Shown piece by piece: positions 21,598 through 38,882 of a DNA stretch of 64,000 nt. The DNA is taken from positions 1,860,001 to 1,924,000 of the forward strand of contig NC_013946.1 in the NCBI RefSeq assembly GCF_000024425.1, given 5' to 3'. A model generated the notes under the pieces. The model worked only from the letters and a program-made list of their open reading frames with translations, ran no database searches and was not told the DNA's origin. A program made the translations under genes and the position numbers. The number at the start of each line of letters is the position of its first letter. Position 1 is the stretch's first letter. The stretch comes from Meiothermus ruber DSM 1279. GTDB lineage: Bacteria > Deinococcota > Deinococci > Deinococcales > Thermaceae.

Positions 21598-22512
21598 ATG
21601 CCCAAGCACGTGGTCAGTGTTTCGATAGGTTCCTCCAGGCGCAACTCCAAAGCCGAGGTGTATGTGGAGAGCCTGGGGGAGACCTTTGTACTCGAGCGCA
21701 TCGGCACCGATGGGAGCTGGGAGAAGGCCATCGAGCTGGTAAAGGAACTGGATGGAAAGGTAGACGCCTTTGGGCTGGGCGGGGCCGACCTCTACGTGTA
21801 CGCGGGTAACCGCCGCTATACCTTCCGCGACGCCGCGCGCATGGCCCGGGCCGCCCGGAAGACCCCCATGCTGGACGGCTCGGGGCTGAAGCACACCCTC
21901 GAGCGCAACGCCATCCGGCTGCTCGAGCCGCAGATTGGCTGGAAAGACAAAAAGGTGCTGGTGCCCAGCGCGGTAGACCGCTTTGGGCTGGCCGAAGCAC
22001 TGGATGCCGCGGGGGCCCGGACGCTCTTTGGCGACCTGATTTTTGGCCTGGGGGTGCCCATCCCGCTTTACCGCCTCTCGCTGCTGCAAAAAATCGCCTA
22101 CATTTTGCTGCCCATCATCACCCAGCTTCCCTTCCAGTGGCTCTATCCCACCGGTGAAAAACAGGAAAAAGAGGTGCAAGACTGGCGCCAGCGCTACTTC
22201 GAATGGGCCGATGTGGTGGCCGGGGACTGGCACTTTATGCGCCGCTTCATGCCGCCCAACATGCAGGGCAAGGTCATCCTGACCAACACCACCACCCCGG
22301 AGGACTTGGAGTTCATGCGCGCGCGGGGCATTGCCCGGCTGATCACCACCACCCCCCGCCTGGCGGGTCGCAGCTTCGGCACCAACGTGATGGAGGCGTT
22401 CATTGTGGCGGTGGCCGGCAAATATCCCCTGAGTGAAGCCGATTACCTCGAGTACATCGAAAAGCTCAACCTGCGGCCCGAGGTCACCGAATTACAGCCC
22501 ACGCTTGGATGA
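21598..22512 (+). CDS. Conserved Deinococcus-Thermus protein, often labelled quinate 5-dehydrogenase
   Basis: The 304-residue protein starts with MPKHVVSVSIGSSRRN and contains VDAFGLGGADLYVYAGNRRYTFRDAARMARAA, PMLDGSGLKHTLERN, KKVLVPSAVDRFGLAEAL and TTTPRLAGRSFGTNVMEAFI. From memory, close relatives in Thermus and Deinococcus carry the name quinate 5-dehydrogenase, but I see no AroE-like substrate motif (no NVTIPHK, no GAGG), so that name looks unsafe. Gly-rich loops (FGLGGADLY, DGSGLKH) could bind a nucleotide or phosphate. It lies 41 bases after the small membrane protein gene and may belong to the tkt transcript. Its last 21 bases overlap the convergent amylase gene. Confidence 0.75.
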   Translation: MPKHVVSVSIGSSRRNSKAEVYVESLGETFVLERIGTDGSWEKAIELVKELDGKVDAFGLGGADLYVYAGNRRYTFRDAARMARAARKTPMLDGSGLKHTLERNAIRLLEPQIGWKDKKVLVPSAVDRFGLAEALDAAGARTLFGDLIFGLGVPIPLYRLSLLQKIAYILLPIITQLPFQWLYPTGEKQEKEVQDWRQRYFEWADVVAGDWHFMRRFMPPNMQGKVILTNTTTPEDLEFMRARGIARLITTTPRLAGRSFGTNVMEAFIVAVAGKYPLSEADYLEYIEKLNLRPEVTELQPTLG

Positions 22513-25500
22513 CCGTTGGCGCCGCAGGTAGTTGGCCAGACCCTGCTCATCACCCTTGGCCAGGTAGGATGCCTGTTTGGCCCAGGTGCCCAGGCTGGGG
22601 GCCAGCCTTATGCCGGCCTGGGCCAGCACCGCGCGAAGGGTGCTTTCTCTGGCTTTGGCAAGCTGGGCGTAGGTGGAGATGCCTGCAGCCTGTAGTGCTG
22701 CTGCGATTTTGGGGCCGATGCCCTTGATGCGCTCGAGGTCGTCCTGGGGGCTTGAGGTTCTGGGCGCCTCGACCGTTTTGGGTGAGCTTTTTGTGGGTTG
22801 GGTCTCCGCGGTCGAGGAACCCCGACTGGAGGCCTTGCGGGGGGATCGGGTTTTTGGAGGCGTGGGTTTTTGCGCAATGGCTCGCAGATACCCGTCCACC
22901 GTAAAACCCGAGTCCAGGGCGGCCTGCTCGAGCTTGTACTGAAGGGTTTGCCAGGTCGTGCGCAGCTTCTCGTGCTGGGCCGCAGGTTTTCTCTGTGCTA
23001 GGTACAGGGCCTGCCCCAGCTTCCCCAGGCCCTCGAGCCAGGCCTGATGGGCCTCGCGGTTGAAGTAGACCCGTCCCTCGAAGCGGTTGACCCCTAAAAA
23101 ACTTTGCACGGCGGGGTCTTGCAGTAGCCTGGGCATCTGCTGGGGTAGGCGGCCTGGCTTCAGCGCCAGCTCACTCTGGGCCAGCAGCAGCCGGGTGAGG
23201 CCCACCGCACGCCGGGCGGCGGCCTCCTCCAGGCCCAGCTCAGCCAGGGTCTGCTCCAGCACCCGCCCCAGGCGCCACTCCTCCAGGCGGGCCGGGCTCC
23301 CCAGGCCGCGGGTGAAGGCCCAGCCCAAAAGCGCGCCGCCGGTCACTAGATCGTCGTGCAGGCCGGCCTCGAGCACCCCCGCCAGGCCATCCAGCACCTG
23401 CTGTACCGGCAGCAAGGCCAGGTTGCCCTCGACGTGCGCCTCGATGCCCCTGTACAGCGCCAGAAGTTTCTCCTGTACCTCTTCCCGCAAAGCCCCGTCC
23501 AGCCCGCCCCGAGCGGCCAGCAGCCTGCGGAAGAGGGCCGGGCTCACCAGCGCGCGGAAAGGTTGCAGGATGGGCCCCAGCCAGAGCTCCTGCCGGGCCT
23601 CGTCCACGCTGGGAACGCCGCGCCCGGAGAGCATCTGGGCCAGGCGGGCGTAGGTGCCGTCGGCGTCGTAGACCTCGCGCCAGTCCAGGAACACCTTGCG
23701 CTGGTAGGGGCCCAGCTCCAGGTAGAGCCCCTGCTCGTGCAGGGCCTGATTGCTGTGCAGGTGCTCGAGGCCCGTCACCAGGTCGCGGAAGATGCTAAAG
23801 GTGCGGGCGTCGTAGCTGAGCTGCAGACCCTGCCCCAGCCCCACCCGCCGGGTCTCGCGGCCCTGTGCGGTTTTGAAGGGCTGGGCCACCGACTGCCGCA
23901 CCCAGACCTGGGTCTCGGCGTTTTTGTTGTGGTACACCACCAAAGCCCGCTCGCTGCCCGCGCGGTTTGAATAAACAAACACATCCTCGTTGACTGCGTC
24001 GCCGGTCTGGGCGTCGTAGAACACGAAATTCTCTACTTCAGCAAACAGGTGGCGCTTTTTGAGCAAGGGAAAGATCTGCTGCTGGTGGTAGGCGATCAGG
24101 CCCTCGTCGGGGGCCTCGTCGTAGTAGGCCCGGCGGTACTCCATGCCGTAGCGTTCGGTGAGCCCCTCCACCTGCCCGTGGCCCAGCATGGGCAGGCCCG
24201 GCAGGGTGGCGCACAGGGTCATCACCCCGAAGTACTTGTCGCCCTTGCCAAACTGCTCGATGGCGGTTTTTTCGTCGGGGTTGTTGAGGAAGTTGACGAA
24301 GCGCTTGAGGATTTCCGGCTCGAACTCGAGCGTATTTTTCACAATCTGCCGGTACTCGGCGTTTTTCTCGTCGCGCAGCATGTTCATGAAGGCCGAGTTG
24401 TAGACCCGGTGCATACCCAGGGTGCGCACGAAATAGCCCTCCATCATCCAGAAAGCCTCGGCCAGCAGCAGGGTGTTGGGGGCCTCCACCGCGACCCGAT
24501 CCACCACCTCGCGCCAGAACTCCCTGGGCATGGCCCGGTCGAAGTCTTCTTTGCTCATGGCGAAGGCGGCCCGGCTGGGCACCGAGGCCCCCCAGGGCGA
24601 GCCCCCCGGCTCGGGCCACCATAGCCGCTGGACGTGGCGCTTGGCCAGGGTCATGGCCGCGTCGAAGCGGATGATGGGAAACTGCCGGGCCACGTGCAGG
24701 ATGGCCTGGATCACCGCCTCGCGCACCTCGGGCAGCAGGTAGTTGAGCTGGGCGGTGTCGTTCCAGGGCATGGCGGTGCCGTCGTTGCCGTGGTAGATGT
24801 AGCGCACCTCGCCGGTCTGCCGATTAACCCATTTGAACACCACCGCCGCGTCGGTCTTGTCGTAGTAGTGGTCTTCCAGGAAGATGCCCACCCGCTCGTC
24901 GGACGACAGATCCGGCCCGTTGAAGGTGTAGCTGGGGTAGGGCGGGTAGGGAAGCTGGATAAACCAGTCGGGGTGCTCCATCACCCAGCGCCCGTCGATG
25001 CCCACATGGTTGGGCACCATGTCCGAGGCCAGGCGGAGGCCGTGACGGGCGGCTTTTTGCCGGAGCACCTCGAGGGCCTCCTCACCCCCCAGCTCTCTGG
25101 CAATCACATAGTCGTACAGCGCGTAGGCCGAGGCGATGGCCTCGGGGTTGCCCATTCGCTGCTTGATGCGCGCTGAGGCTTTGCTGCGCTCCCAAAGCCC
25201 AATGAGCCACAGGCCCGTCACCCCCCAGCTTTGCAGTTGGGCCAGCTCCTCCTCGGGAATCTGGTCGAGGGTTCTGATCTCGCGGCGGTATTTTTTGGAG
25301 AGCTGATCCAGCCAGACATAGGTGTTCTTGGCGATCAGGACGCAGCGCGGCATCCAGTCCAGGTCGGGGCTGAAGGCCTCGGGTTCGGGCTCGGAGAGGA
25401 GCCGCCGGATGTCCAGCATCTCACTTTCGCCCCCACCCCCACCGCCCGGCCCGTCAAAGTGAACCGGCGCGGCAAACGAGCGCCCTTCCTCGCGGATCAC

Positions 25501-26253
25501 GTCGAGGCCAACCAGCATCCGGTAGTAGAAGCGCCCCAGGCTGCCGCCAAAGCGCTGTAGCAGAAACTCGAGCTGGGCTTCCAGCGAATGGGGGTGCTGC
25601 AGGGCCGGCAGCCGCAGGGTTTTGAAAAGGGAAAGCCCGCTCTGGCCGAAGGCCGGCTGGCCCTCGAAGAAGGTCTCCAGGTTCTGGATGATGGGCAGGT
25701 AGGCGGTGGTGCGCTCGAGGGTTTCATCATCGAACAGCTCGGCGAATGGGGCGAAGGCCGGGTTGGCGTTGGCCATCCACAACAGGAGCATCTCCTCCAA
25801 CTGAATCTCCCGGTTGGAGCGGCCCTCGGTGGTATCCGCCAGGTATTCGTCCAGGCTGATCTCGCCCCGGTAAACCCGGATGGGGGGGAAGAGGGCGGCA
25901 AAGGCGCGCAGGGCCTGTTCTACCGCATCGGGGCCCAGGTTGCGCTTCAGGGCCGCCAGGGCCTCCTGCATGGCGTGGGGGTGCGCTTCCAGGTACTGCC
26001 GCACGATGAGGTGCAGCAGCTCGTCAATCAGGCCCATGGCGTTGATCTGGCTGGGGTGCACGGCCTGCTCGGGGTGCCGCAGCAGGTCGCGCTTGGCATT
26101 CATGGCCTCGGCGAAGCGTCGGGCCGCCTCAAAGTCGGCCAGGATGACGTTGCCGCTCAGCGAGAACAGCGACAGATCAAACTGATAGAAATCCCGCGCC
26201 TCTTTGGAAACGTGGAATTCGCGGGCCCCCGGCCAGGTCTGACGGTAGCTCAC
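22492..26253 (-). CDS. Very large GH13 alpha-amylase-like protein with C-terminal helix-hairpin-helix domain
   Basis: The 1253 residues have no signal peptide, so a cytoplasmic role in alpha-glucan metabolism is likely. An N-terminal domain of about 300 residues of unknown type precedes a GH13 barrel. Visible GH13 elements are GLWLIGLWER, ASDMVPNHVGID (region I His), FPIIRFDAAMTLAKRH (region II, nucleophile Asp near residue 531), LLLAEAFWMM (region III, acid Glu near 600) and NFLNNPDEKTA (region IV Asp). A long alpha-helical segment follows. A low-complexity linker of Lys, Pro and Ser leads to residues about 1172-1253, which hold KGIGPKIAAALQAAGISTYAQLA, a helix-hairpin-helix motif of the kind found in DNA-, RNA- or protein-binding proteins. 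The GTG start follows GGGAGGGG. The substrate is not known. Confidence 0.85.
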   Translation of the reverse strand: MSYRQTWPGAREFHVSKEARDFYQFDLSLFSLSGNVILADFEAARRFAEAMNAKRDLLRHPEQAVHPSQINAMGLIDELLHLIVRQYLEAHPHAMQEALAALKRNLGPDAVEQALRAFAALFPPIRVYRGEISLDEYLADTTEGRSNREIQLEEMLLLWMANANPAFAPFAELFDDETLERTTAYLPIIQNLETFFEGQPAFGQSGLSLFKTLRLPALQHPHSLEAQLEFLLQRFGGSLGRFYYRMLVGLDVIREEGRSFAAPVHFDGPGGGGGGESEMLDIRRLLSEPEPEAFSPDLDWMPRCVLIAKNTYVWLDQLSKKYRREIRTLDQIPEEELAQLQSWGVTGLWLIGLWERSKASARIKQRMGNPEAIASAYALYDYVIARELGGEEALEVLRQKAARHGLRLASDMVPNHVGIDGRWVMEHPDWFIQLPYPPYPSYTFNGPDLSSDERVGIFLEDHYYDKTDAAVVFKWVNRQTGEVRYIYHGNDGTAMPWNDTAQLNYLLPEVREAVIQAILHVARQFPIIRFDAAMTLAKRHVQRLWWPEPGGSPWGASVPSRAAFAMSKEDFDRAMPREFWREVVDRVAVEAPNTLLLAEAFWMMEGYFVRTLGMHRVYNSAFMNMLRDEKNAEYRQIVKNTLEFEPEILKRFVNFLNNPDEKTAIEQFGKGDKYFGVMTLCATLPGLPMLGHGQVEGLTERYGMEYRRAYYDEAPDEGLIAYHQQQIFPLLKKRHLFAEVENFVFYDAQTGDAVNEDVFVYSNRAGSERALVVYHNKNAETQVWVRQSVAQPFKTAQGRETRRVGLGQGLQLSYDARTFSIFRDLVTGLEHLHSNQALHEQGLYLELGPYQRKVFLDWREVYDADGTYARLAQMLSGRGVPSVDEARQELWLGPILQPFRALVSPALFRRLLAARGGLDGALREEVQEKLLALYRGIEAHVEGNLALLPVQQVLDGLAGVLEAGLHDDLVTGGALLGWAFTRGLGSPARLEEWRLGRVLEQTLAELGLEEAAARRAVGLTRLLLAQSELALKPGRLPQQMPRLLQDPAVQSFLGVNRFEGRVYFNREAHQAWLEGLGKLGQALYLAQRKPAAQHEKLRTTWQTLQYKLEQAALDSGFTVDGYLRAIAQKPTPPKTRSPRKASSRGSSTAETQPTKSSPKTVEAPRTSSPQDDLERIKGIGPKIAAALQAAGISTYAQLAKARESTLRAVLAQAGIRLAPSLGTWAKQASYLAKGDEQGLANYLRRQRSSKRGL

Positions 26254-27694: not shown

Positions 27695-28602
27695 GAAACT
27701 GTTGTAAAAGTCTCCCATCAGGCCTCAGACGGCCCTAGCCAGCCGCTTCACCAACAAGCGTATCATGCCTAAATACATCCAGGCCTCCGTTACCTCGGGA
27801 TAGTACTCGTAATCCTTCCCCAACCGCCGGCTCCGCCCCATCCAGGCAAACGTCCTTTCCACCACCCACCGCTTGGGCAACGGTTTGAACCCCTCCACCC
27901 GCACAATCTCCGGGGGAGGGGAAGCCTCCTTCACCCACACCCCACGCACCCCCGCATAGGGATGGGCTACCACCTCCAGCTCCAACCCTAGGGAGGCAGC
28001 TAGCCCCTTGAGACCCCGGTACCCCCAGTCCACGAAGACCTTCCGTGCCCTCGACCAATAGACGAGGTCCATCCCCTCCAGAAGGACCTTCCCACCCCAC
28101 TTGTCGTGTTCGTTGGCCGGGTGCACGTAGACCTTGAGCAAACGACCTCCCGTGTCCGTCAGGATCTGCCGCTTTCTCCCTTTGACCTTTTTCGCCCCGT
28201 CGTTCCCCCGGGGCCCCCCTTTTCACTCGTCTTCACCGACTGGCTGTCCATGACCAGGGCACTCGGGGAGGCATACCGTCCTTCCCGCTCCCGGTCACGA
28301 CGGGCCAGAACCTGAGCTACCTTCTCCCAAACCCCTTCCTTCTGCCACTTGCGGAAGTAGTGGTAGACCGTGGACCAGTGGGGTAAGTCATGGGGCATGG
28401 CCCGCCACTTGATGCCGTTTTCCAGGACGTAGAGTATGGCGTTTACGATCTCCCTTCTAGGCACTTTTGCAGGGCGGCCTCCCGGCTTGGGGGCGGGGAT
28501 CAAGGGCTCCAGGATGGCCCACTCCTCGTCCGTCAAATCGCTGGGGTAAAATCTACGTGTAGAAGCCACCCTTCAAGCATAGCAGACTTTTACGACAGTC
28601 TC
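27695..28602 (-). mobile_element. Complete IS5-family element (908 bp) inserted upstream of cdd
   Basis: The terminal inverted repeats are 18 bp with 16 matches: GAAACTGTTGTAAAAGTC at 27695-27712, and at the other end (28585-28602) the reverse complement of GAGACTGTCGTAAAAGTC. The target duplication TAA lies at 27692-27694 and 28603-28605. The two-frame transposase, ends and duplication are all intact, so the copy may still be active. It ends 17 bases before the cdd start codon. Confidence 0.93.
27725..28569 (-). CDS. IS5-family transposase made by -1 frameshift (orfA + orfB)
   Basis: orfA (28569 to 28159) begins MASTRRFYPSDLTDEEWAIL (DUF4096 domain) and reaches LVMDSQSVKTSEKGG with the first catalytic Asp. 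At AAAAGGGGGG on the coding strand (28214-28223) a -1 shift enters the second frame, which reads GGPRGNDGAKKVKGRKRQIL and continues to a stop at 27725. The second frame holds VFVDWGYRGLKG (second Asp) and KRWVVERTFAWMGRSRRLGK (catalytic Glu with its downstream Arg). A A-AAG-GGG slippery run at exactly this position is typical of two-frame members of the IS5 family. Taken alone, neither frame would make a complete DDE domain. Close homologues in a single frame would have roughly 270-280 residues. Confidence 0.88.
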
Positions 28603-29034: not shown

Positions 29035-29742
29035 CTATAGCCGGGTTAGGTCGCGGTTGCTAACAAAGGTCGGCAACCCGTAGTACATCGCCCGGGCTCG
29101 AGCAAAACCCTCGAGCCAGAAACGATCGGTGTAGTCCAGCGCATAGAGCTCGAGGCCCAACCCCTGCAAACGAAATAGGCAGCTCAGGTTGTACTCGAGT
29201 TCGTAGGCGGGCAGCACCCGGTAGCCCCTGGGCGTCCAGGTGGTGGAAAACGACTCCAGAACCACCCCGTCAACCAGGCTCGAAAGCTCGGGCAGAAGAT
29301 AAAACCCACGGTTGGCGTACAGCCGCCTGGAGCCCACCAGGGCGCGCAACTGGGCTATGAGCTGGAGCATGGCGCCCCGATCCTGGGGGTTGAGGGTTAC
29401 GGTATCTAGGGTATCTAAAAACAAACCCTCAAATCCCATATCAATGGCCTTCTGGGCCTCATCCAGTCGGCTTCTAATCCAGTCGGGGTGGGCCGGGTCT
29501 ACATAAACCGTGTTCCAGTCCGGGTTGCGGGTCTTGCGGTGCCATGGCGCCGGGGTGGGCTGATCCTCGCCCAGGCTCAAGTAGGCCAGTGGCCGGGTGC
29601 CCTGGCGGCGCAGCCACTGAAGCTCTATAGGGGTATAGGCCCAGGTTTGCAAGACCACCTGGGCATAGCGGCGCAGTTGTTGTAGGCGTCCTTTGCCGTA
29701 GTAAAAAGCCAAGGCTTCCTTGCGGTACATCCTTCGCCTCAC
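29035..29742 (-). CDS. GH114-type glycoside hydrolase without signal peptide (second PelA-hydrolase-like protein)
   Basis: The 235 residues form a TIM-barrel-like domain of the GH114/TM1410 group, whose studied members are endo-alpha-1,4-polygalactosaminidases. Visible elements are FYYGKGRLQQLRRYAQVVLQ, GTRPLAYLSLGE, MGFEGLFLDTLDTV (Asp at the end of a barrel strand), YANRGFYLLPEL, VDGVVLESFST (candidate catalytic Glu) and the C-terminal ALDYTDRFW. I find no signal peptide, so it may act in the cytoplasm or with the adjacent membrane protein; a start further upstream is blocked by that gene. It overlaps the upstream gene by four bases (ATGA) and closes the locus. A polymer-length control or lyase-like trimming role is inference. 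Confidence 0.8.
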   Translation of the reverse strand: MRRRMYRKEALAFYYGKGRLQQLRRYAQVVLQTWAYTPIELQWLRRQGTRPLAYLSLGEDQPTPAPWHRKTRNPDWNTVYVDPAHPDWIRSRLDEAQKAIDMGFEGLFLDTLDTVTLNPQDRGAMLQLIAQLRALVGSRRLYANRGFYLLPELSSLVDGVVLESFSTTWTPRGYRVLPAYELEYNLSCLFRLQGLGLELYALDYTDRFWLEGFARARAMYYGLPTFVSNRDLTRL

Positions 29743-31169
29743 TGGTAGTTGCGCAATTCACGTAAAACTGGCAAAGCCACCAGCAGCAGGTAACTGGTAA
29801 AAACCCCACACCCGATCAGATAGCTCACCGACTCATCCAGGGGGAGCAGGCCCTGGATGGACAGGGCAAACGCCACGGCATAAACCAGCAACGCCAGCAG
29901 CATGCCCAGCAAAACCCTCAAGGTACGGTTCATGGAGGTGAGGGTAAAAGCCACGAAAAACCCAATGCCCAGTAAAAAGTTTGCGAGCAAAAAGACCTCC
30001 GACGCCGGGCTGTTGAGGCCGAAAAATACCTTGGTCAGCAGGCTTAGGACTAGCAACAGCGCGGCATACGAAGCCAGCGCAGATAGAAAAATGCGATTGA
30101 TGTTACGGGCAAACACCCTCAGGTCGCTGGTGCTGGCCAGCAGCAAGCTCACCCGCTCCAAAAAAACCCGCAACTGCCATTCCAGCCCGCCCATGCTCAG
30201 CACCAGCGGCACCACCGCCAGGCCCAGCACAATGGAGGTGCCGGTAACCCAGTGCCAGAAGGGGTTGATGAAAACAAAGATCGCACTAAAGAGCCCATAC
30301 AGCACCAGCGGGATCGCATCCAGCCAGTCGGCTTTTTGCAGCACCTTCCAGGGCGAGTGGCCGGCCCTGGTTCGAAGCTCCAGCAGCGCGGCCGCCACGC
30401 TCAGCAGGACGGAGCCCATCATGACCGTAACCGTGCCGGTGGCGCCCAGCAGCTCGGGAAACCACAAAAACAGCACCCCAGCCAGCACCGCCGGTAGAGC
30501 GGCCAGCAGCAGCCACAGCTCGCGTTTATACAAAAGCAGGATGCTCGAGGCCATATGATAAGCCGTCTGTAAAACCACCAAGACCGCGAGGGCCAGGTCG
30601 GCCTGTAGAAGCAATGAAACTAGTAAAGCCGGCCCCAGGCCCAGAAAAAACATGGTTTGCAAGAGCTTACGGGCCTCAGCAGCAAACCCACGGCCCATCA
30701 ACACATAGGCCAGGCGAATCATGCCCTGGCTCCAAGCCCAGCCCAGAATCGCCGATAAAATCAGGCCGAGGGTGGCTTCCCGGGCACCCACCCAGGCAAA
30801 AATCGCCGGAAAAAACAGGCCGGGCATCCCGTAAAAAAGCCCATGCGAAAGCTCTCGTAAAGTTTCGGGCAGGCGATTGGCTTTACGTCTGGAAGCAGCC
30901 GCTCGACGCGGCGCTATCCGATAGAGCGCTTCCGCCAGCTCAAACACATTGGGGTATCCGTAGCGTTCCAGCACCATTCGGTCGTTGTAGCCGTGAGCCT
31001 CGAGCACCGCAGCCACCTGCTGGGCATCCACTGCGGTTTCAATCAACGGCCCGAGGTGTTGCAACAGCGGCGTTAGGCGATCCGTGGCACCCACCGGGTA
31101 ACCAGTGCGGGTGTAGCTGGCTAAGACCGCCACCCCCCGCTCGCTATAAAACTCTGTACGCTGGCTCAT
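29739..31169 (-). CDS. Polytopic membrane protein in the PelG position (candidate polysaccharide export/synthesis partner)
   Basis: The first about 100 residues are soluble (ERGVAVLASYTRTGYPVGATDRLTPLL, then NVFELAEALYRIAPRRAAASRR). About ten to twelve hydrophobic helices follow, from GLFYGMPGLFFPAIFAWVG to the C-terminus. No sugar-transfer motif is seen. PelG of known loci is a 12-helix membrane protein of the polysaccharide-flippase-like type that works with PelF; this protein has the same place right after pelF, but I cannot show homology. The ATG at 31169 is preceded by GAGGAG at eleven bases; an in-frame upstream start at 31220 is less likely. It overlaps the last gene of the locus by four bases. 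Confidence 0.7.
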   Translation of the reverse strand: MSQRTEFYSERGVAVLASYTRTGYPVGATDRLTPLLQHLGPLIETAVDAQQVAAVLEAHGYNDRMVLERYGYPNVFELAEALYRIAPRRAAASRRKANRLPETLRELSHGLFYGMPGLFFPAIFAWVGAREATLGLILSAILGWAWSQGMIRLAYVLMGRGFAAEARKLLQTMFFLGLGPALLVSLLLQADLALAVLVVLQTAYHMASSILLLYKRELWLLLAALPAVLAGVLFLWFPELLGATGTVTVMMGSVLLSVAAALLELRTRAGHSPWKVLQKADWLDAIPLVLYGLFSAIFVFINPFWHWVTGTSIVLGLAVVPLVLSMGGLEWQLRVFLERVSLLLASTSDLRVFARNINRIFLSALASYAALLLVLSLLTKVFFGLNSPASEVFLLANFLLGIGFFVAFTLTSMNRTLRVLLGMLLALLVYAVAFALSIQGLLPLDESVSYLIGCGVFTSYLLLVALPVLRELRNYQ

Positions 31170-31361
31170 GCCGACTGCCACTCCTCGAGGTGTCCCACCG
31201 GCCTTCCGCCAACGGTTCAAATTTGCATGCGCTCCTGCGAAGTTGTGACAGGAGGGTGCATCCTACCATCCATTGCCTTGCCCACCTTCTCAATGAGGCT
31301 CCACGATACCCCACCACACAGATATATGCATCGTAACAGACCCTGTCGGGGGTAAGGAATC

Positions 31362-32864
31362 TCATGTAACAGCCTCACCACTACCTACCAGCATCAGATC
31401 AGCCCTATCTTTCGCTTCTTCTTGGACAGGAACTCGCCCGGCTTGAGCCGCGAAAACCACGTCCTGGTACATTTTCCGGTAGTCGTTCAGAAAACGCTCG
31501 AGGGTAAAGTATTTGAGCACCCGGGCCCGCGCCGCTTTACCCAAAGCAATTCGACGTTCATCATCGAGCAAGAGCTCAACGCATGCCTTGCCCATAGCCA
31601 CAGGGTCGCGGGCCGGCACCAGAATGCCTGCATCCCCTACCGCCTCCGCCACCCCCCCCACATCGGTGGAAACTGTAGCCCGCTCACACGACATAGCCTC
31701 AATCACCGCGTAAGGGAAACTCTCCGAGATGCTGCTCAGCACCACCACATGGCCGGCCTGATAGCCCTTTGCGACTGGTGAAACACGGCCTTCGAAGCTC
31801 GCTGCCCCCTGCAGTCCCAACCTAACGATAAGCTCTTCGCAGCTCGCTCGATAAGGCTCGTTGCCCTTTGGAGTAGGACCAAAAATGCGCAAGCGAGCAT
31901 TGGGAACCTGCTCTTTGGTGTATGCAAATGCTTCAATCAAGGTATGCAGGTCTTTAAGGGGGTCGATACGGCCTACAAAAACGAGTGTTGGCAGATCGGG
32001 TTCTACTGCGGGTGGCGGAAACTGCGTTGGGTCGATGCCGTTGTGTATCGGTCGAATAGAGGAAGGAAAAGCCCCGTTGCGTTCCTCCCAGCGGCGGTTG
32101 TACTCCGAGACCGGCACGATCAGATCGGCCATGCGGTAGGCCGCGCTCGAGAGCAAGCGGAAAAAGTTCAGAATTAGGATTCGTACCGAAGAGCTATAGG
32201 GCGCCTGAAGGTAGCTTAGATAGCGCTCCCGAAGGTACACCCCATGCTCGGTAAGCACAAAAGGAGCCTGGTGATACCATTTGCCCACCATTCCAACCAA
32301 GGCTGCAGGCCCGTTAGAAACAGCGTGATAGACCGCGGCTCTGGGCGGAATAAACTGCAAAGGACGGAGCAGGTGCTCGAGCAGGTCTGTAGCCAGCAAG
32401 GCGTCCTGTAGGGTTAATTCTGGTAGTCCTGCGCTGGAGGTATCCTGGGACTGGCACTCCTTCCAGGCTTTAATCAGGCGCCCAATCGAGGCTTCGCTCA
32501 GCAAAGCCTCTCCAAGGTCGGCCTGCCGGGCGTAGCCAGCCATCGCCTTTAAGGCCCAAAGAAAATAGGTGGTGCCCCAGTTGGGCCTTACCAGGGCGTT
32601 TACAAAGCTGTGGTGTACCTGGTTAAACCAGTGGGAAGCCCGGTTCCTGGAGCGACCCCGGCGCACCGAGCTCCACAAGGGAAAATTCACCACGCCTTTT
32701 AGATTGGCAGGTGCAGGATAAACGGCTTTTTCCAGGCCGTTGCTGGTAAGGGCGATTACTTCGAACTCGAGCTCCTGGAGCCCGCGGATAAGCTGATCGC
32801 ACCATACACTCACCCCTCCTTCCACAAAGGGGTAGGTTCCTTCGGTAACCAGGGCAATCCTCAT
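31362..32864 (-). CDS. pelF: PelF-type GT4 glycosyltransferase
   Basis: This 500-residue cytoplasmic retaining glycosyltransferase is of family GT4. The N-terminus MRIALVTEGTYPFVEGGVSVWCDQLI is the hallmark of the PelF subgroup (DUF3492 region). The C-terminal Rossmann domain contains LVFVGRIDPLKDLHTLIEAF, GPTPKGNEPY, FEGRVSPVAKGYQAGHVVVLSSISESFPYAVIEAMSC with the E-x7-E motif, and DVGGVAEAVGDAGILV. PelF of Pseudomonas polymerises the Pel polysaccharide from UDP-N-acetylhexosamine, so the same sugar type is expected. The stop of the deacetylase gene lies 21 bases upstream, which indicates co-transcription. Confidence 0.88.
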   Translation of the reverse strand: MRIALVTEGTYPFVEGGVSVWCDQLIRGLQELEFEVIALTSNGLEKAVYPAPANLKGVVNFPLWSSVRRGRSRNRASHWFNQVHHSFVNALVRPNWGTTYFLWALKAMAGYARQADLGEALLSEASIGRLIKAWKECQSQDTSSAGLPELTLQDALLATDLLEHLLRPLQFIPPRAAVYHAVSNGPAALVGMVGKWYHQAPFVLTEHGVYLRERYLSYLQAPYSSSVRILILNFFRLLSSAAYRMADLIVPVSEYNRRWEERNGAFPSSIRPIHNGIDPTQFPPPAVEPDLPTLVFVGRIDPLKDLHTLIEAFAYTKEQVPNARLRIFGPTPKGNEPYRASCEELIVRLGLQGAASFEGRVSPVAKGYQAGHVVVLSSISESFPYAVIEAMSCERATVSTDVGGVAEAVGDAGILVPARDPVAMGKACVELLLDDERRIALGKAARARVLKYFTLERFLNDYRKMYQDVVFAAQAGRVPVQEEAKDRADLMLVGSGEAVT

Positions 32865-32885
32865 AGAATCTGTCCCGCCCCTCTC

Positions 32886-35174
32886 CTACTCCCCAGGGTA
32901 GTAGGAAAAACGCAGTTCCTGCCCGGCCGACAGGCTCACTTTTGAAACGGTATCCCCACCGTACACCCAGCTCACCCCCTGCGCAGCCCCTGTAAAAAAC
33001 AGCACCCCGGAAGTTCCGGCAGGCGCAGAGATTGTGACCCGACCCTGGCCGCGATCCCAAAAAGCGGTGATGCCTGCCCGGAGCAGAGCTGTGTGTTGAG
33101 TACGCTCAGCCACATACGCGCCAATCTCGTCCCAGGAAGGATTGAGCACCGGGATGCTGTAATAGCTGGTGTATTTCTGCATTAAGCGCTCGAGGTAATC
33201 GAAAACCAGGCTGCGCCCCGGCGCATACTCCCGCAGGTTGGCCTGGTGGAAGTAGTGGGAGCTGGCGCTAGTTTGCAGGTGGTGGAGGGCCAGGTTGGTC
33301 TCCTGCTCGAGGATTTCCTCGTAAGTAAGCGCCCTGGGCCAGTATGGGAAGCGCCCACCGGGCGCATAGATGTAGTTGTAAAAGGAGGCGGCCTCAGCCG
33401 GGGTGGTCACGGTGTAGGCAATGTTGGTGGGCCAGACCGGAATCATCAGCAGGTTTGGGCGCAGCGCCACGCCGCAGATGGGACAGGGGGGTTTGTGGCT
33501 ACCCACCGAGTAGTTGCCGTGGATGTAGCGAATGCCCAGCTCAACCGCGCGATCCAGCATGGCCTGGTTGGCGCAAATCAAACCAAAGTCCTTGCGCGGC
33601 TCATCCGCACCGGGGCCGGTGGGCCCCGAAACCGCCGGGCAGTCCGAAGGCAAGGCCGGGGGAACCACCGGCGCTGGGGCAGGGCTCCGGTACCAGCCCA
33701 GGCCCGAAAGTTCGCCGGTTTTGAGGGTTTTGGGGCTGTACCAAAGGCCCATCTGGTTGGCTAAGCGGGTGTTCTCGGCAATTTGGAAGCGCAGCGCCGC
33801 TGGGTCGGTGATGTTGTCCATGGAGGGGTGATCGCGGGTATGGTTGACCCAGCGCATCCGGCTGGCCAGGCACTTGGTCAGGCTGGACAGAGGGTCGCCG
33901 CTGGACACCCCTGGGTTGCAACTGGCCGCCACGCCGAGGTTCACCCCGCGACCGTTGAAGACCAGATTGAGCATGAAGCCATTGCTGAGCGGGTAGCTGG
34001 CATTGAGCCGGCGCTGTTGCTGGTACACCGACCACGCATCCTGCGCCGATATCCGGAAAGGCTCGCTTCGGTAGCGCAGGGGGTCGCCGGGCTGGAGGGC
34101 CTCATCCCACCAGTCGGACTCGAGGCCCCAGTCGTCCACGTCGACCGCCAGAATATGCCGCCGCTCCCCGATGAACAGCCCCCGCGTGGCCCAGCGAACG
34201 AGGCCATAGCCCAGCAGTTGGGTGTGCAGCAGGTAGGGGTTGCTGGCAAAGGTCAGGGCGATGCGCTCCCGTCCATCAGAAGACCTGCTCAACACCCCCA
34301 GCACATTGCCGCTCGAGTCCTGCAAAAGCGGCTGTGCCGAACAGCCGGGTGACTCCTCGGGCGTCGCCAGACGAGCCGGGTAAAGATAGGCGTTTTGAAT
34401 GGGGATTTCTGCACTTGGATTGAGGTAGCTAAACACGCCCCGTCCTTCGGGAGTAAGGGTCATCCGCACCGGCGGGTAAAGGGGTGGATCGCCCGGCGGA
34501 TTGGTGGCCGGGTTATCGGTGCGCACACCCTCATCACCAGCGGGCCGCACAGCGCGCATGCAGTAGTCCTCGGGTTCGGCGTAATTGAAAACCGGATCGC
34601 CTGTTCCAAGGAAGGTGTAAAGCGAAACCAAACGAACCGCATAACGGCGCTGGTAGTCCCAGAGCCGATTCCACTCATCCGCATCAAAAGCGCTGGCAAA
34701 AACCCCCGGTGATACTTCGTAAGCCAGGTTGTTGCTGGCCAGCAAGACGGCCTGGAAGCGCCCACCAGCGCTATCTTCCAGCACGCTTGGGGTCAGGGCC
34801 TGTGTAGAGGCGATCAGAACCTCATAGTTGGCCCCTAGTTGGTCAAGCAAAGCCCGCCAGGCCTGCAGACCGGGGTCTTCGGGGGTTGGGCCAATCACCA
34901 GGATGCGCAGGGCCACACGGTTTGCCGGCAGCCCCTGCGCCTGCACGCTCCCTGGACGAGACCGGCTCGAGCTGGGAATCTGCACCCTGGGAAGGGGACG
35001 GTTGGCGTCTGGCTGCTGCAGCGGCAGGGCCACCGGGGCCCCCTCAAAACGGGGCATGGAGGGTGTCTGGGCCGAACCATCCGATACCTGGCCCGAATTG
35101 TTTTTCTGCAGGCTGCATCCGGATAGCAACAGTACAAGCAGAGCTAAAAGAGGCGCAATCTGTGTCCTATTCAT
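32886..35174 (-). CDS. Lipoprotein with Agd3/PelA-type (CE18) polysaccharide deacetylase domain
   Basis: The 762-residue protein has a signal peptide ending in the lipobox LLSGCS, then a disordered linker. The region RILVIGPTPEDPGLQAWRALLDQLGANYEVLI is a flavodoxin-like part found before this type of deacetylase. The metal site matches Agd3 and the PelA deacetylase domain: HILAVDVDDWGL (Asp residues) and RWVNHTRDHPSMDNI (His residues). Later elements are IRYIHGNYSVG, PNLLMIPVWPTNIAYTV and the last His region SSHYFHQANLRE. C-terminal residues form a small beta domain. It should remove acetyl groups from a GalNAc-containing polymer outside the membrane. It sits 21 bases before pelF. Confidence 0.8.
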   Translation of the reverse strand: MNRTQIAPLLALLVLLLSGCSLQKNNSGQVSDGSAQTPSMPRFEGAPVALPLQQPDANRPLPRVQIPSSSRSRPGSVQAQGLPANRVALRILVIGPTPEDPGLQAWRALLDQLGANYEVLIASTQALTPSVLEDSAGGRFQAVLLASNNLAYEVSPGVFASAFDADEWNRLWDYQRRYAVRLVSLYTFLGTGDPVFNYAEPEDYCMRAVRPAGDEGVRTDNPATNPPGDPPLYPPVRMTLTPEGRGVFSYLNPSAEIPIQNAYLYPARLATPEESPGCSAQPLLQDSSGNVLGVLSRSSDGRERIALTFASNPYLLHTQLLGYGLVRWATRGLFIGERRHILAVDVDDWGLESDWWDEALQPGDPLRYRSEPFRISAQDAWSVYQQQRRLNASYPLSNGFMLNLVFNGRGVNLGVAASCNPGVSSGDPLSSLTKCLASRMRWVNHTRDHPSMDNITDPAALRFQIAENTRLANQMGLWYSPKTLKTGELSGLGWYRSPAPAPVVPPALPSDCPAVSGPTGPGADEPRKDFGLICANQAMLDRAVELGIRYIHGNYSVGSHKPPCPICGVALRPNLLMIPVWPTNIAYTVTTPAEAASFYNYIYAPGGRFPYWPRALTYEEILEQETNLALHHLQTSASSHYFHQANLREYAPGRSLVFDYLERLMQKYTSYYSIPVLNPSWDEIGAYVAERTQHTALLRAGITAFWDRGQGRVTISAPAGTSGVLFFTGAAQGVSWVYGGDTVSKVSLSAGQELRFSYYPGE

Positions 35175-35516
35175 CCGCTAGTGAACCCTTAATCTAAAAT
35201 GAGATGGACTTAAACCCCTGAGGCCGCCTTACCAAGTCTAAGGGTAGAAGAAGATGGTCAAACGCAGTAGTAGATTCCTTGAGTTACCGCACGTTACATT
35301 AATGCACCTTTTCACTTAGAACTCAATAACATTTCATGGGCCTAAAAAACCCCACATACTTTTCAAAGATAGGCTTTTGGCCCTGTCAAAGCCGTGCCCA
35401 ATAGTTCAGACCCGCCCTTACGCTCCCGCTCATGGCATGTGCAAAACGCACTCGAGCCCCCAGGGCTCGGTGAGATTTTTGCGTCTAGGGCTTTTTATCC
35501 TGACTTAACGGGGGAG
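35175..35516. other. 342-bp AT-rich spacer inside the pel-like locus
   Basis: I see no gene here. A hairpin CGAGCCC/GGGCTCG (35452-35468) is followed by ATTTTT on the plus strand and GTTTTG on the minus strand. On the minus strand, TTGACA (about 35384-35389) and several T/A-rich hexamers could make a second promoter for the deacetylase-pelF part. The A+T content is clearly above that of the flanks. Confidence 0.5.
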
Positions 35517-36350
35517 TTACCTGCACTCCTCTACCCAGCCATCCAGTTCACGCCGCTTCAAGATGGAGAAAATGCCCAGGCTAACGCTGCTAGCACAAAA
35601 CTGAGAGGCGCTCTTGATGCGGGTGTCGGTGTATTCGATGTTCAGCACCGGCTTGCCAGCCTGCACCATGGGCCGGGTCTGGTTGCACCAACCCTGGGCA
35701 AAACATTCCTCGGTGACCAGAAAATCGAAGTCGTTGATGAGCTGTGGGAGCAGCTCGGTGGTGTTTTTGAGTCCGATAGCCAGGCCGCGCTGGTGGGCTT
35801 CGCCAGCTAACCAACGGTTGAAGCGAAGCTGATCCTGGGCCGTAAGGGGAAAACCGGTGTTGTTCTGGTAGCCGTTCACGTTGTCAGGGTCTACACCCAC
35901 AAAGCCCTTTTGCTTACAGAGATCGAGCCGGGCCCGCAGAATGGGGGCCAGCTTGTCAATCTGTCGGATATCCAGCCAGCGCTCCCCAGGCCAGCCGTCG
36001 TAGTTGCGGCCCAGCACCTCAGGTGGAAACAGGTTCCTGTCAGGCCGCCAGTTTTCCCAGGAACCCGCACTCAGGTAGCAGACAGCCTTTACCCCACGCG
36101 CCGCCAGCTCCTGTACCACACTGGCCGGGGTATCGAACAGATCGAGGTTGTAGGCCGTTACTTGACGGTTTTTATCGAGCGTACCGGTGTATTGGATGTG
36201 CCAGGTGGTATCCACCCCAGGCTTCCACCATCCACCCGGGGCGGGGCTGGATGGTGGGGTGGGATTTGGAGCGGTGAACTCAAGAGTGCCGCCACAGGCC
36301 GTCATCGCAACGGCCAGCACCCATAGATAGCGGAGCATATGCAGTAGCAT
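35517..36350 (-). CDS. GH114 endo-alpha-1,4-polygalactosaminidase-like lipoprotein (PelA hydrolase-like)
   Basis: The 277-residue protein has a signal peptide with lipobox MTACG and then a GH114 domain. Typical elements are WHIQYTGTLDKN, VTAYNLDLFDT, VKAVCYLSAGSWENWRPD, ERWLDIRQ, KGFVGVDPDNVNGYQN (catalytic Asp region), LAIGLKNTTEL and FLVTEECFAQGWC (catalytic Glu region). Family GH114 members cut alpha-1,4-linked galactosamine polymers, and the hydrolase domain of PelA belongs to the same clan of activity. It is the first gene of the locus in transcription order. An ATG four codons in (MLRYLW) is an alternative start. Confidence 0.87.
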   Translation of the reverse strand: MLLHMLRYLWVLAVAMTACGGTLEFTAPNPTPPSSPAPGGWWKPGVDTTWHIQYTGTLDKNRQVTAYNLDLFDTPASVVQELAARGVKAVCYLSAGSWENWRPDRNLFPPEVLGRNYDGWPGERWLDIRQIDKLAPILRARLDLCKQKGFVGVDPDNVNGYQNNTGFPLTAQDQLRFNRWLAGEAHQRGLAIGLKNTTELLPQLINDFDFLVTEECFAQGWCNQTRPMVQAGKPVLNIEYTDTRIKSASQFCASSVSLGIFSILKRRELDGWVEECR

Positions 36351-36491: not shown

Positions 36492-38882
36492 ATGCGCTTA
36501 TTGCTGGGGTTGTTTAGATTTTGGCTTCACCTGTCCACTCTACTTTTACTGGCACTGGCAGGCTGCACCCGCCCTGCGCTGGAACCCGCCCTACAGATCA
36601 ACTTTTCCCCAGACCGCCTGCGCCTTGTGCCGGGCGGGGCCGGAGAGGTCAACATTACCCTTGTGCGCCAGAATCTGCCTGGAGTGGTAGCACTGGATCT
36701 GCCTGACCCTTTACCAGAAGGCGTAACCGCCTCTTTTACCCCTTCCAGCACAACCGGCGACACCGCCACCCTACGGGTTCAGACCTCGAGCAGTGCAGCC
36801 GTGGGCAGCTTTAACTTGCGGGTAAGGGCTGCCCAGGGATCCATAAGCGCCACCAACGACCTACCCTTGCAGATAGAACCCAGCCAGCAACCCGACTTGC
36901 AGTTATTCCTGGACAACCCCACCCCCTCCATCCGCCAGGGGCAGCATGCAGATCTTTTAGTTGACGTGCGGCGCATCAACCTCGAGGGCGTGGTGGTACT
37001 GACCCTCGAGCAGCAGGACGGCCGCCCCCTGCCGCCCGGCCTGAGCGCGACCTTCAGCCCCGGCCAGCCCAGCACCACCGTCTCGATTCTGCGGCTTGCA
37101 GCGGCCCCCACCGCTACCACAGGCCCCTACCCCCTGCGCATCAAGGCCACCTGGGGCAGCCTCGAGCGCACCCTGGACTTCACCCTCACAGTCCTGGAAG
37201 CCCTGCCAGAGCCCGACTTCCAGCTCAACCTGACCCAGAATCTCAGCCTTCAGCGGGGCGGAACCAGCAGCGAGACCATCACAATTACTCGTGTCAATTT
37301 GTCCGGCCCCATCGCCCTGAGCCTCGAGCGCTTCGACGGCACCCCGCTACCCCCTGGCATCAGCGCAACCTTTGCACCAGCAGAACCAGAGGGCCCCCAT
37401 TCCACCCTTACCATCTCCGCTGCCCCCGACCTGCCCCTGGGAGACTATGTGCTACGGGTGCGGGGCGTGCAAGGCACGCTCGAGCGCACCGCTCTGGTAC
37501 TGCTAAATGTGTTTGATCAGGCCGGGCTTACCGCTACCGGAGCCGTCTGGGTTGCCGCCCAGGACGATAGTGGAGCCTGGCAGGTAGTACAACCCACCGC
37601 CGGCAGCTACCGCCTGCGCGTCAGCAACGCCGCAGAACGCTATGGCTGGGCGGTGGTGTGCAGCAAAACCGAGGCCGGCCTCACCACCCATCAGGTGAGC
37701 GTCTATCAGCTCACCCTAAGCGAGGTGCGCACGCTGAGCCTGTCCTGCCCCCCGGCTGCCAGCAGCGGCGCCTTCTCAGACCTCAGTGGACAGCTCACCA
37801 ACCTGGATGGCCGTCATGCCCAGGTGGCCTTTGGCACGGCCAGCGACTTTGTGGATCCGGCCCGAACAGCCGACTTCCCCCCCACCCCAGCCTACCCCGG
37901 TTACCTGCTGCAAGGCGTGCGGCAGGGCACCGCCGATCTGATGGCCGTGCGCTACCTACCACCCACCCCACCAGGAACCTACTTCCAGGCCGACCGGGCC
38001 CTGTTCCAGCGCAGCTACACCCTGAGCGGTCGGCAGAGCCTCGACCTGGATATGCAAGGTTCTGCCTCCTTCGCGCTCGAGGGCACCTACACCGCCACCC
38101 TGACCAACCCCAACCCCGCCGCCCAGGGCCTGAGCTACCTGGCCTACCTGACCCCCACCACCCAGACCCTTTACCTGGCGGACAGCCAGCAACAGGCCGC
38201 CGATCTATCCTACGGCGCCATCCCCACCAGCCGGCGGCTGGCCAACGAGTTCTATGTTTTCTATGCCCGCGAGACCACCTTCAGCAACCTGAGCCTGCGT
38301 TCCCGGCAGGCGCTGCGGGGCTTTGCCAACCCCCAGAACCTGAGCGCCAGCTTCCTGAGCCTGCCGGAAGCCCATCTGAACCTGCAAAACAACCGCTTCC
38401 AGACCACCTGGAGCCCGTATTCGTGGTCGGGCAGCGGCAGCCAACTGTTCAGCCTGAAGCTCGAGCAGTTGGCGGTGGCCCCCAGCACCAACCTGGTGTG
38501 GCACCTCCACCTTTCGCGCCGCTGGGTGGGTGGTACCACCAGCTACCCCATTCCCAACCTCGCCCAGAGCTGTGCGGCCGCCCAATCCCCTTGTGTTCCG
38601 GCTCCTTCCAACACCGCCACCAACGGCTGGCAGAGTGACTGGAGTTTGCGCGATAACCTCGAGCTTGACTGGTCGTTTAGCGCGGTGCAGGTGAGCCTTC
38701 CCCTAACCGACTGGCTGCCCCTGGCCCCGAGCCCCTTCCCACCCACCAGCCTCAACCTGGAGGGCTTCAGCTTTGATGCTGCCAGCGCTGGGGGCCTTTA
38801 CAACGCCAGCAGGCTCTCGGCGCAGCACCAGGTAAAAGCCAGGGAGCCGCGCTTACTGCCCTTCTGGCTTGCACCCCGCTGA
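36492..38882 (+). CDS. Large Ig-repeat lipoprotein, unknown function
   Basis: The 796 residues start with a signal peptide and lipobox LALAGCT. Three repeats of about 100 residues follow (about 30-130, 130-230, 235-335). Each is beta-rich and has the pattern of a bacterial Ig-like module: FSPDRLRLVPGG, LPPGLSATFSPGQPS and LPPGISATFAPAEPE mark equivalent strands. A different beta-rich C-terminal half of about 450 residues has no recognised family and two Cys pairs. It is likely a surface or periplasmic protein. It is divergent from the pel-like locus, 141 bp from its first gene, so it may be a matrix or adhesion protein that works with the polymer (inference). Confidence 0.8.
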   Translation: MRLLLGLFRFWLHLSTLLLLALAGCTRPALEPALQINFSPDRLRLVPGGAGEVNITLVRQNLPGVVALDLPDPLPEGVTASFTPSSTTGDTATLRVQTSSSAAVGSFNLRVRAAQGSISATNDLPLQIEPSQQPDLQLFLDNPTPSIRQGQHADLLVDVRRINLEGVVVLTLEQQDGRPLPPGLSATFSPGQPSTTVSILRLAAAPTATTGPYPLRIKATWGSLERTLDFTLTVLEALPEPDFQLNLTQNLSLQRGGTSSETITITRVNLSGPIALSLERFDGTPLPPGISATFAPAEPEGPHSTLTISAAPDLPLGDYVLRVRGVQGTLERTALVLLNVFDQAGLTATGAVWVAAQDDSGAWQVVQPTAGSYRLRVSNAAERYGWAVVCSKTEAGLTTHQVSVYQLTLSEVRTLSLSCPPAASSGAFSDLSGQLTNLDGRHAQVAFGTASDFVDPARTADFPPTPAYPGYLLQGVRQGTADLMAVRYLPPTPPGTYFQADRALFQRSYTLSGRQSLDLDMQGSASFALEGTYTATLTNPNPAAQGLSYLAYLTPTTQTLYLADSQQQAADLSYGAIPTSRRLANEFYVFYARETTFSNLSLRSRQALRGFANPQNLSASFLSLPEAHLNLQNNRFQTTWSPYSWSGSGSQLFSLKLEQLAVAPSTNLVWHLHLSRRWVGGTTSYPIPNLAQSCAAAQSPCVPAPSNTATNGWQSDWSLRDNLELDWSFSAVQVSLPLTDWLPLAPSPFPPTSLNLEGFSFDAASAGGLYNASRLSAQHQVKAREPRLLPFWLAPR

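Follow-up and report, generated by a model that had tools for sequence, protein, structure and literature searches.

A five-gene locus of Meiothermus ruber with a PelF-type glycosyltransferase and a predicted MOP-fold membrane partner

Several described systems resemble the locus analyzed here. Gram-positive Pel loci follow the order pelD-E-ADA-F-G, in which ADA is a single deacetylase-only gene and the hydrolase usually lies outside the locus (PMC7112168). The fungal galactosaminogalactan (GAG) cluster combines an epimerase, a synthase, a deacetylase, a GH114 and a GH135 (PMC4817252, PMC11356417). Bamford et al. 2020 report homologs of the fungal deacetylase Agd3 in Actinobacteria and Deinococcus-Thermus, in uncharacterized operons where GH114 genes occur with those for a multi-spanning membrane protein and a cytoplasmic glycosyltransferase, and they note that a bacterial origin of the GAG cluster finds support (PMC7229062). 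Here we describe a locus of this kind in the thermophile Meiothermus ruber DSM 1279, located within a 64,000-nucleotide stretch of contig NC_013946.1 (positions 1,860,001 to 1,924,000, hereafter the window). The closed genome measures 3,097,457 bp, and the nearest named relative is M. taiwanensis, with 97% identity in the deacetylase and 95% in the membrane protein. Our best reading is a galactosaminogalactan-like exopolymer system with two core parts, a PelF and a MOP flippase. The locus comprises the following genes:

35517..36350, minus strand: GH114 endo-alpha-1,4-galactosaminidase of the Ega3 type, predicted lipoprotein, 277 residues (Pfam, phmmer, lipobox)
32886..35174, minus strand: Agd3-type (CBM87 + CE18) polysaccharide de-N-acetylase, predicted lipoprotein, 762 residues (Pfam, phmmer, model)
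31362..32864, minus strand: PelF-type GT4 glycosyltransferase, cytosolic, 500 residues (NCBIfam PelF, DUF3492, tree)
29739..31169, minus strand: MOP-fold membrane protein with 12 transmembrane helices and a helical N-terminal soluble domain, PelF partner and predicted flippase/translocase, 476 residues (AlphaFold2 model, linkage)
29035..29742, minus strand: GH166-like protein (PelA hydrolase domain) without signal peptide, 235 residues (phmmer to 5tcb)

A preliminary description of this DNA had listed the same five genes in this order, which the open reading frames bear out. It had regarded them as a reduced Pel locus that retains A, DA, F and G, by comparison with a Gram-positive order given as D-E-A-DA-F-G in place of the published one. 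This part of the description is not supported: the deacetylase belongs to CE18, the fungal type, the protein in the G position is of the predicted MOP fold with no relation to PelG that could be detected, and the PelF falls in a sister lineage of those linked to PelG. Its broader assignment to a galactosaminoglycan-type system is retained, on the basis of the PelF trees, the Agd3 fold and the two hydrolases of endo-galactosaminidase type.

The glycosyltransferase and its membrane partner

The 500-residue GT4 protein scores 193 bits against the NCBIfam PelF equivalog NF038011 (cut-off 100) and 192 bits against Pfam DUF3492. In two maximum-likelihood trees the PelFs group together, apart from other GT4 enzymes (support 100/99), in agreement with the earlier assignment of this protein to the PelF type. 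The PelFs are divided into two clades, each with support of 100/98. One contains 19 sequences from Deinococcota and Actinomycetota that are linked to the MOP-fold protein; the other contains 11 sequences from Proteobacteria, Fusobacteria and Actinomycetota and includes those from PelG-type loci, with two of the 11 (L131 and L132) coming from unannotated records beside which PelG is assumed. The outgroup branches are long, leaving the root between the two clades not firm, while their separation is firm. Even within Actinomycetota, where PelG-type loci also occur, the MOP-linked PelFs form their own clade. By these sequence comparisons, the PelF of this locus is placed in a sister lineage of the PelG-linked PelFs. 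A literature search on Deinococcus PelF or Meiothermus polysaccharide returned nothing useful.

The open reading frame of the membrane gene extends over 29739-31220, with the start most likely at 31169 (MSQR...). The product matches no model in Pfam or NCBIfam, and a sequence search of the PDB with its family yielded nothing useful. An AlphaFold2 model built from a 37-sequence alignment (pLDDT 86, pTM 0.76) shows a helical soluble domain of ~60 residues followed by 12 transmembrane helices. Foldseek lists MATE, WzxE and MurJ proteins at a probability of 1.00, with E-values of only ~1e-3. VIA-align superposes the model on MOP proteins with Z of 12-21 over ~350 residues at a root-mean-square deviation (rmsd) of 4-6, the top Z covering ~355 residues at an rmsd of 4.5. 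Since Z exceeds the warning level of the tool for helical proteins and the highest-scoring entries are all MOP-fold, the model assigns the protein the MOP flippase fold (MATE/Wzx/MurJ); it may transport a polysaccharide or a lipid-linked glycan.

We considered PelG as the identity of this protein and rejected it on Pfam, NCBIfam and profile-profile evidence. Searches with the PelG model PF16933 found nothing in this genome or in any of 111 Deinococcota, while the control in T. maritima was positive, and profile-profile comparison with PelG (hhalign) gives a probability of 0.1-0.5%. Of the earlier proposal of a G-position polytopic protein, the polytopic character and the position directly after PelF stand, and a sequence or profile link to PelG does not.

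Linkage and cluster contents in related genomes

The two core genes are tightly linked. A scan of 84,980 species returned 359 loci with a relative of the membrane protein, and we inspected the best 80. Among these, all from Deinococcota and Actinomycetota, PelF lies directly upstream of the membrane protein in 77; the remaining three are at contig edges or on a 3.5-kb contig. PelF was found in 27 of the 111 Deinococcota genomes, and in all 27 the membrane protein follows directly downstream on the same strand, within 412 nt. Two more Deinococcota genomes contain only marginal matches to the membrane protein (E ~1e-4). The order deacetylase, PelF, membrane protein and hydrolase is kept across Meiothermus and Thermus, at identities of 30-97%; such synteny at 30-50% protein identity rules out a chance arrangement.

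The contents of these clusters vary around the conserved pair. The Meiothermus cluster consists of GH114, Agd3-like, PelF, MOP and GH166-like proteins; in M. granaticius it is extended by genes for a nucleotidyltransferase and an epimerase. Deinococcus plasmid clusters encode PelF, the MOP protein, three sugar-nucleotide enzymes, an Agd3-like protein and hydrolases, and the cluster of Streptomyces griseus encodes PelF, the MOP protein, an epimerase and a spherulin-4/GH135 protein. Plasmids of Streptomyces californicus and Kocuria rosea carry Agd3-like, PelF, MOP, spherulin-4 and GH114 genes. Whatever is added always acts in the same pathway, be it an epimerase, a nucleotidyltransferase, a GH114 or a GH135/spherulin-4 protein, and the minimal five-gene forms contain only a deacetylase, a glycosyltransferase, a membrane protein and two endo-hydrolases.

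Two of the plasmid-borne loci deserve separate mention. In K. rosea the cassette (L113, 6514-15582) lies on the mobilizable plasmid NZ_CP126484.1 and is flanked by two inverted copies of the transposase WP_284563886.1, suggesting a possible composite transposon. The Thermus brockianus megaplasmid pTB1 also carries the locus (L134, 5432-11742), with its deacetylase, MOP and GH166-like proteins annotated as hypothetical.

The deacetylase, the hydrolases and the surroundings of the locus

The 762-residue protein matches both Agd3 Pfam domains, CBM87_Agd3 and Agd3_CE, above their cut-offs, and is related to Agd3 (6nwz) with a phmmer E of 2e-10. Its model (mean pLDDT 77, pTM 0.82) superposes on Agd3 along its full length with a Foldseek E of 2e-31, a Z of 27.1 and an rmsd of 2.9 over 558 residues (model residues 1-677), ahead of human NDST1 as the second fold match (Z 20.6). 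The residues D347/D348 of CM1, H445xxxH449 of CM2 and H643 of CM4 align with those of Agd3 and are invariant in nine Deinococcota. We also considered a deacetylase of the PelA or PelADA type (CE21/CE26) and set it aside, as the best matches in both sequence and fold are to Agd3, well above other folds; PelA is absent from the fold matches listed for the model, and a distant relation to PelA is still compatible with these results. The CM3 position is occupied by valine (V580) in Meiothermus, by aspartate in M. granaticius and by arginine in a Deinococcales metagenome-assembled genome and in actinobacteria. Bamford et al. describe CM3 as kept in most, not all, bacterial Agd3 homologs (PMC7229062). 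A CE18 deacetylase is not a marker of the MOP-partner type, a use that we considered and dropped: Agd3-type deacetylases are also encoded at two actinobacterial loci that have a genuine PelG (L142, 8333-10267, with 86 bits to PF25115, and L143, 8207-10171).

The 277-residue protein belongs to GH114 (PF03537, 273.6 bits, cut-off 27). Its best solved relative is Ega3 of A. fumigatus (6oj1, phmmer E 7e-54), and its residues D156, E214 and E215 are invariant among relatives. Both this protein and the deacetylase begin with lipobox-type N-termini (...AMTAC and ...LLSGC, respectively), in line with their earlier description as a GH114 hydrolase and a CE18/Agd3-type deacetylase, each a lipoprotein.

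The fifth gene, previously also called GH114, must be reassigned. We rejected a plain GH114 identity as the PelA hydrolase domain is far closer: the best solved relative of the 235-residue protein is this domain (5tcb, phmmer E 2e-24), and its Pfam GH114 score is 28 bits. Residues D110, D113 and E163 are invariant in eight Deinococcota, and E163 aligns with the glutamate that is substituted in the mutant structure 5tsy. The protein has no N-terminal hydrophobic stretch, whereas a PelG-linked relative in Paraburkholderia does.

Along the minus strand, 5' to 3', the genes are separated by gaps of 342, 21 and 192 nt, and the membrane gene and the GH166-like gene overlap by 4 nt. A terminator-like hairpin on the minus strand at 35469-35453, identified by consensus match only, lies inside the 342-nt gap, and the GH114 gene may therefore form a transcription unit of its own, apart from the other four. 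Divergent from it is a possible accessory gene:

36492..38882, plus strand: predicted lipoprotein with Ig-like repeats, 796 residues (synteny)

This repeat protein has no Pfam match above cut-off. In six Meiothermus genomes it is found next to the GH114 gene, with identities of 67-96%. Thermus loci are likewise neighbored by related repeat proteins, and in one Thermus locus (L026, 10446-11633) similar Ig-like repeats are fused to GH114. Elsewhere in the window, an IS4/5-type transposase at 27725-28569 is split over two frames (DUF4096 and a DDE domain), probably through programmed frameshifting or decay, and a 1253-residue protein at 22492-26253 combines an alpha-amylase-like domain with a helix-hairpin-helix domain at its C terminus, which is unusual.

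Proposed function and comparison with known systems

Given these features, we consider it probable that the locus directs the synthesis, export and trimming of an alpha-1,4-linked exopolysaccharide that is rich in N-acetylgalactosamine (GalNAc) and partly de-N-acetylated, in the manner of the Pel and GAG systems. We infer UDP-GalNAc use, polymerization, translocation, deacetylation, cleavage and a role in biofilms. As judged from its family, the cytosolic PelF would polymerize UDP-GalNAc, supplied by a GalE that is encoded elsewhere in the genome and scores above its curated cut-off. The MOP-fold protein, the obligate partner of PelF, would take the part of PelG and carry the polymer across the inner membrane. 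Outside, deacetylation by the Agd3-type lipoprotein could leave the polymer cationic and adhesive, and its deacetylated stretches could be cut by the Ega3-type GH114 lipoprotein, both activities being those expected of their families. Our guess for the GH166-like enzyme of the cytosol is that it probably removes polymer left inside the cell or keeps its amount low.

Several observations weigh against this proposal. MOP folds are common to drug exporters and flippases of lipid-linked sugars. The Thermaceae deacetylases lack the CM3 arginine, whose role in Agd3 is to activate the catalytic base, and the GH166-like enzyme lacks a signal peptide in all Deinococcota relatives examined. The locus itself contains no epimerase. 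Finally, no outer-membrane exporter was identified: PelB and PelC are not found beside the locus, a genome-wide search for them not having been made.

An ordinary reduced Pel locus, in which this lineage has lost PelD and PelE and the membrane protein is a PelG too divergent to be recognized by sequence, would account for the shared position after PelF, the 12-helix MOP fold and the homology of PelF. We consider it unlikely, given the negative PelG searches across Deinococcota with their working control, the negligible profile-profile probability, the additional conserved N-terminal soluble domain of the membrane protein, and the separate clade of its linked PelFs, which persists inside Actinomycetota alongside PelG-type loci. 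The PelD_GGDEF model (PF16963) has no match in the genome, including the genes of the locus, in a search whose positive control gave no match anywhere, and no PelE candidate lies between the five genes, a PelE model search not having been made. Overall, the missing Pel genes look like the mark of a different system type common to Deinococcota and Actinomycetota, not of loss in a thermophile.

Similarly improbable is that the PelF homolog builds a short lipid-linked glycan, flipped by the MOP protein in a Wzx-like manner, with a cell-wall or surface glycan as the product and no synthase-type homopolymer. WzxE and MurJ are indeed among the fold matches, and several related clusters encode sugar nucleotidyltransferases and epimerases. 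However, the cassettes lack an initiating phosphoglycosyltransferase, a polymerase and a ligase, nothing of this kind accompanies the core in the minimal five-gene forms, and the hydrolase and deacetylase families act on long GalNAc polymers. The main role of the enzymes could also be to break down or alter galactosamine polymers of foreign origin, such as fungal GAG or the Pel of neighbors, as might be suggested by the predicted surface or periplasmic location of the GH114 and Agd3-type lipoproteins and by the ability of these hydrolase families to attack GAG and Pel (PMC12054363). Such a role is very improbable, as the conserved core always contains a glycosyltransferase and a MOP protein, which scavenging does not need.

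Beyond the biosynthetic system that we favor, a bolder proposal is possible rather than probable: PelF and the MOP-fold protein may represent a second, PelD- and PelG-independent synthase-exporter of GalNAc polymers, which plasmids have partly helped to spread through Deinococcota and Actinomycetota. It may also be what corresponds in bacteria to the fungal GAG cluster, and possibly where that cluster came from; Gtb3 would then be a fusion of a PelF-like domain with a membrane portion. If our reading of the locus is right, cationic galactosamine biofilm polymers would come from two types of bacterial machine that have PelF in common and translocators that look unrelated, one of them without a recognized cyclic di-GMP receptor. 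A small two-protein core would be available for testing how a PelF polymer passes the membrane, and a bacterial cluster with the enzyme set of fungal GAG would bear on the proposed bacterial origin of a virulence-associated polymer. The heat-stable enzymes of Meiothermus and Thermus could also serve as biofilm-cutting tools.

The locus fits the description of the agd3 operons by Bamford et al. 2020, with its glycosyltransferase, multi-spanning protein and GH114, and we therefore count it as a member of that operon kind, which has already been reported. In the part of that text available to us, the membrane protein is not identified and the glycosyltransferase is not placed against PelF. To this description our analysis adds a distinct PelF lineage, an obligate MOP-fold partner in the place of PelG, a conserved cytosolic GH166-like enzyme and the loss of CM3 in Thermaceae, although part of this may already be contained in PMC7229062.

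With the Gram-positive pelDEADAFG loci of B. cereus and streptococci, the locus shares a PelF-type glycosyltransferase followed by a 12-helix protein, a separate deacetylase and a nearby gene resembling the PelA hydrolase (PMC7112168). In contrast, PelADA there belongs to CE26/CBM114 (PMC13254593) and the deacetylase here to CE18/CBM87, PelG is not found here, and PelF falls in another clade. Pseudomonas pelABCDEFG likewise offers a relative of PelF and a hydrolase, PelA-H (GH166), related to the one described here, but its PelA deacetylase belongs to CE21, and its PelG, PelD and outer-membrane PelB and PelC have no recognized counterpart in this locus. The Aspergillus galactosaminogalactan cluster (uge3, gtb3, agd3, ega3, sph3) shares the Agd3-type deacetylase and the Ega3-type GH114 with this locus, and GH135/spherulin-4 and an epimerase with the clusters of its relatives. 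Where the fungus has one putative transmembrane glycosyltransferase, Gtb3, the bacterial locus has separate PelF and MOP proteins. The related clusters thus encode the same functions that make up the GAG cluster of the fungus (PMC4817252, PMC7229062).

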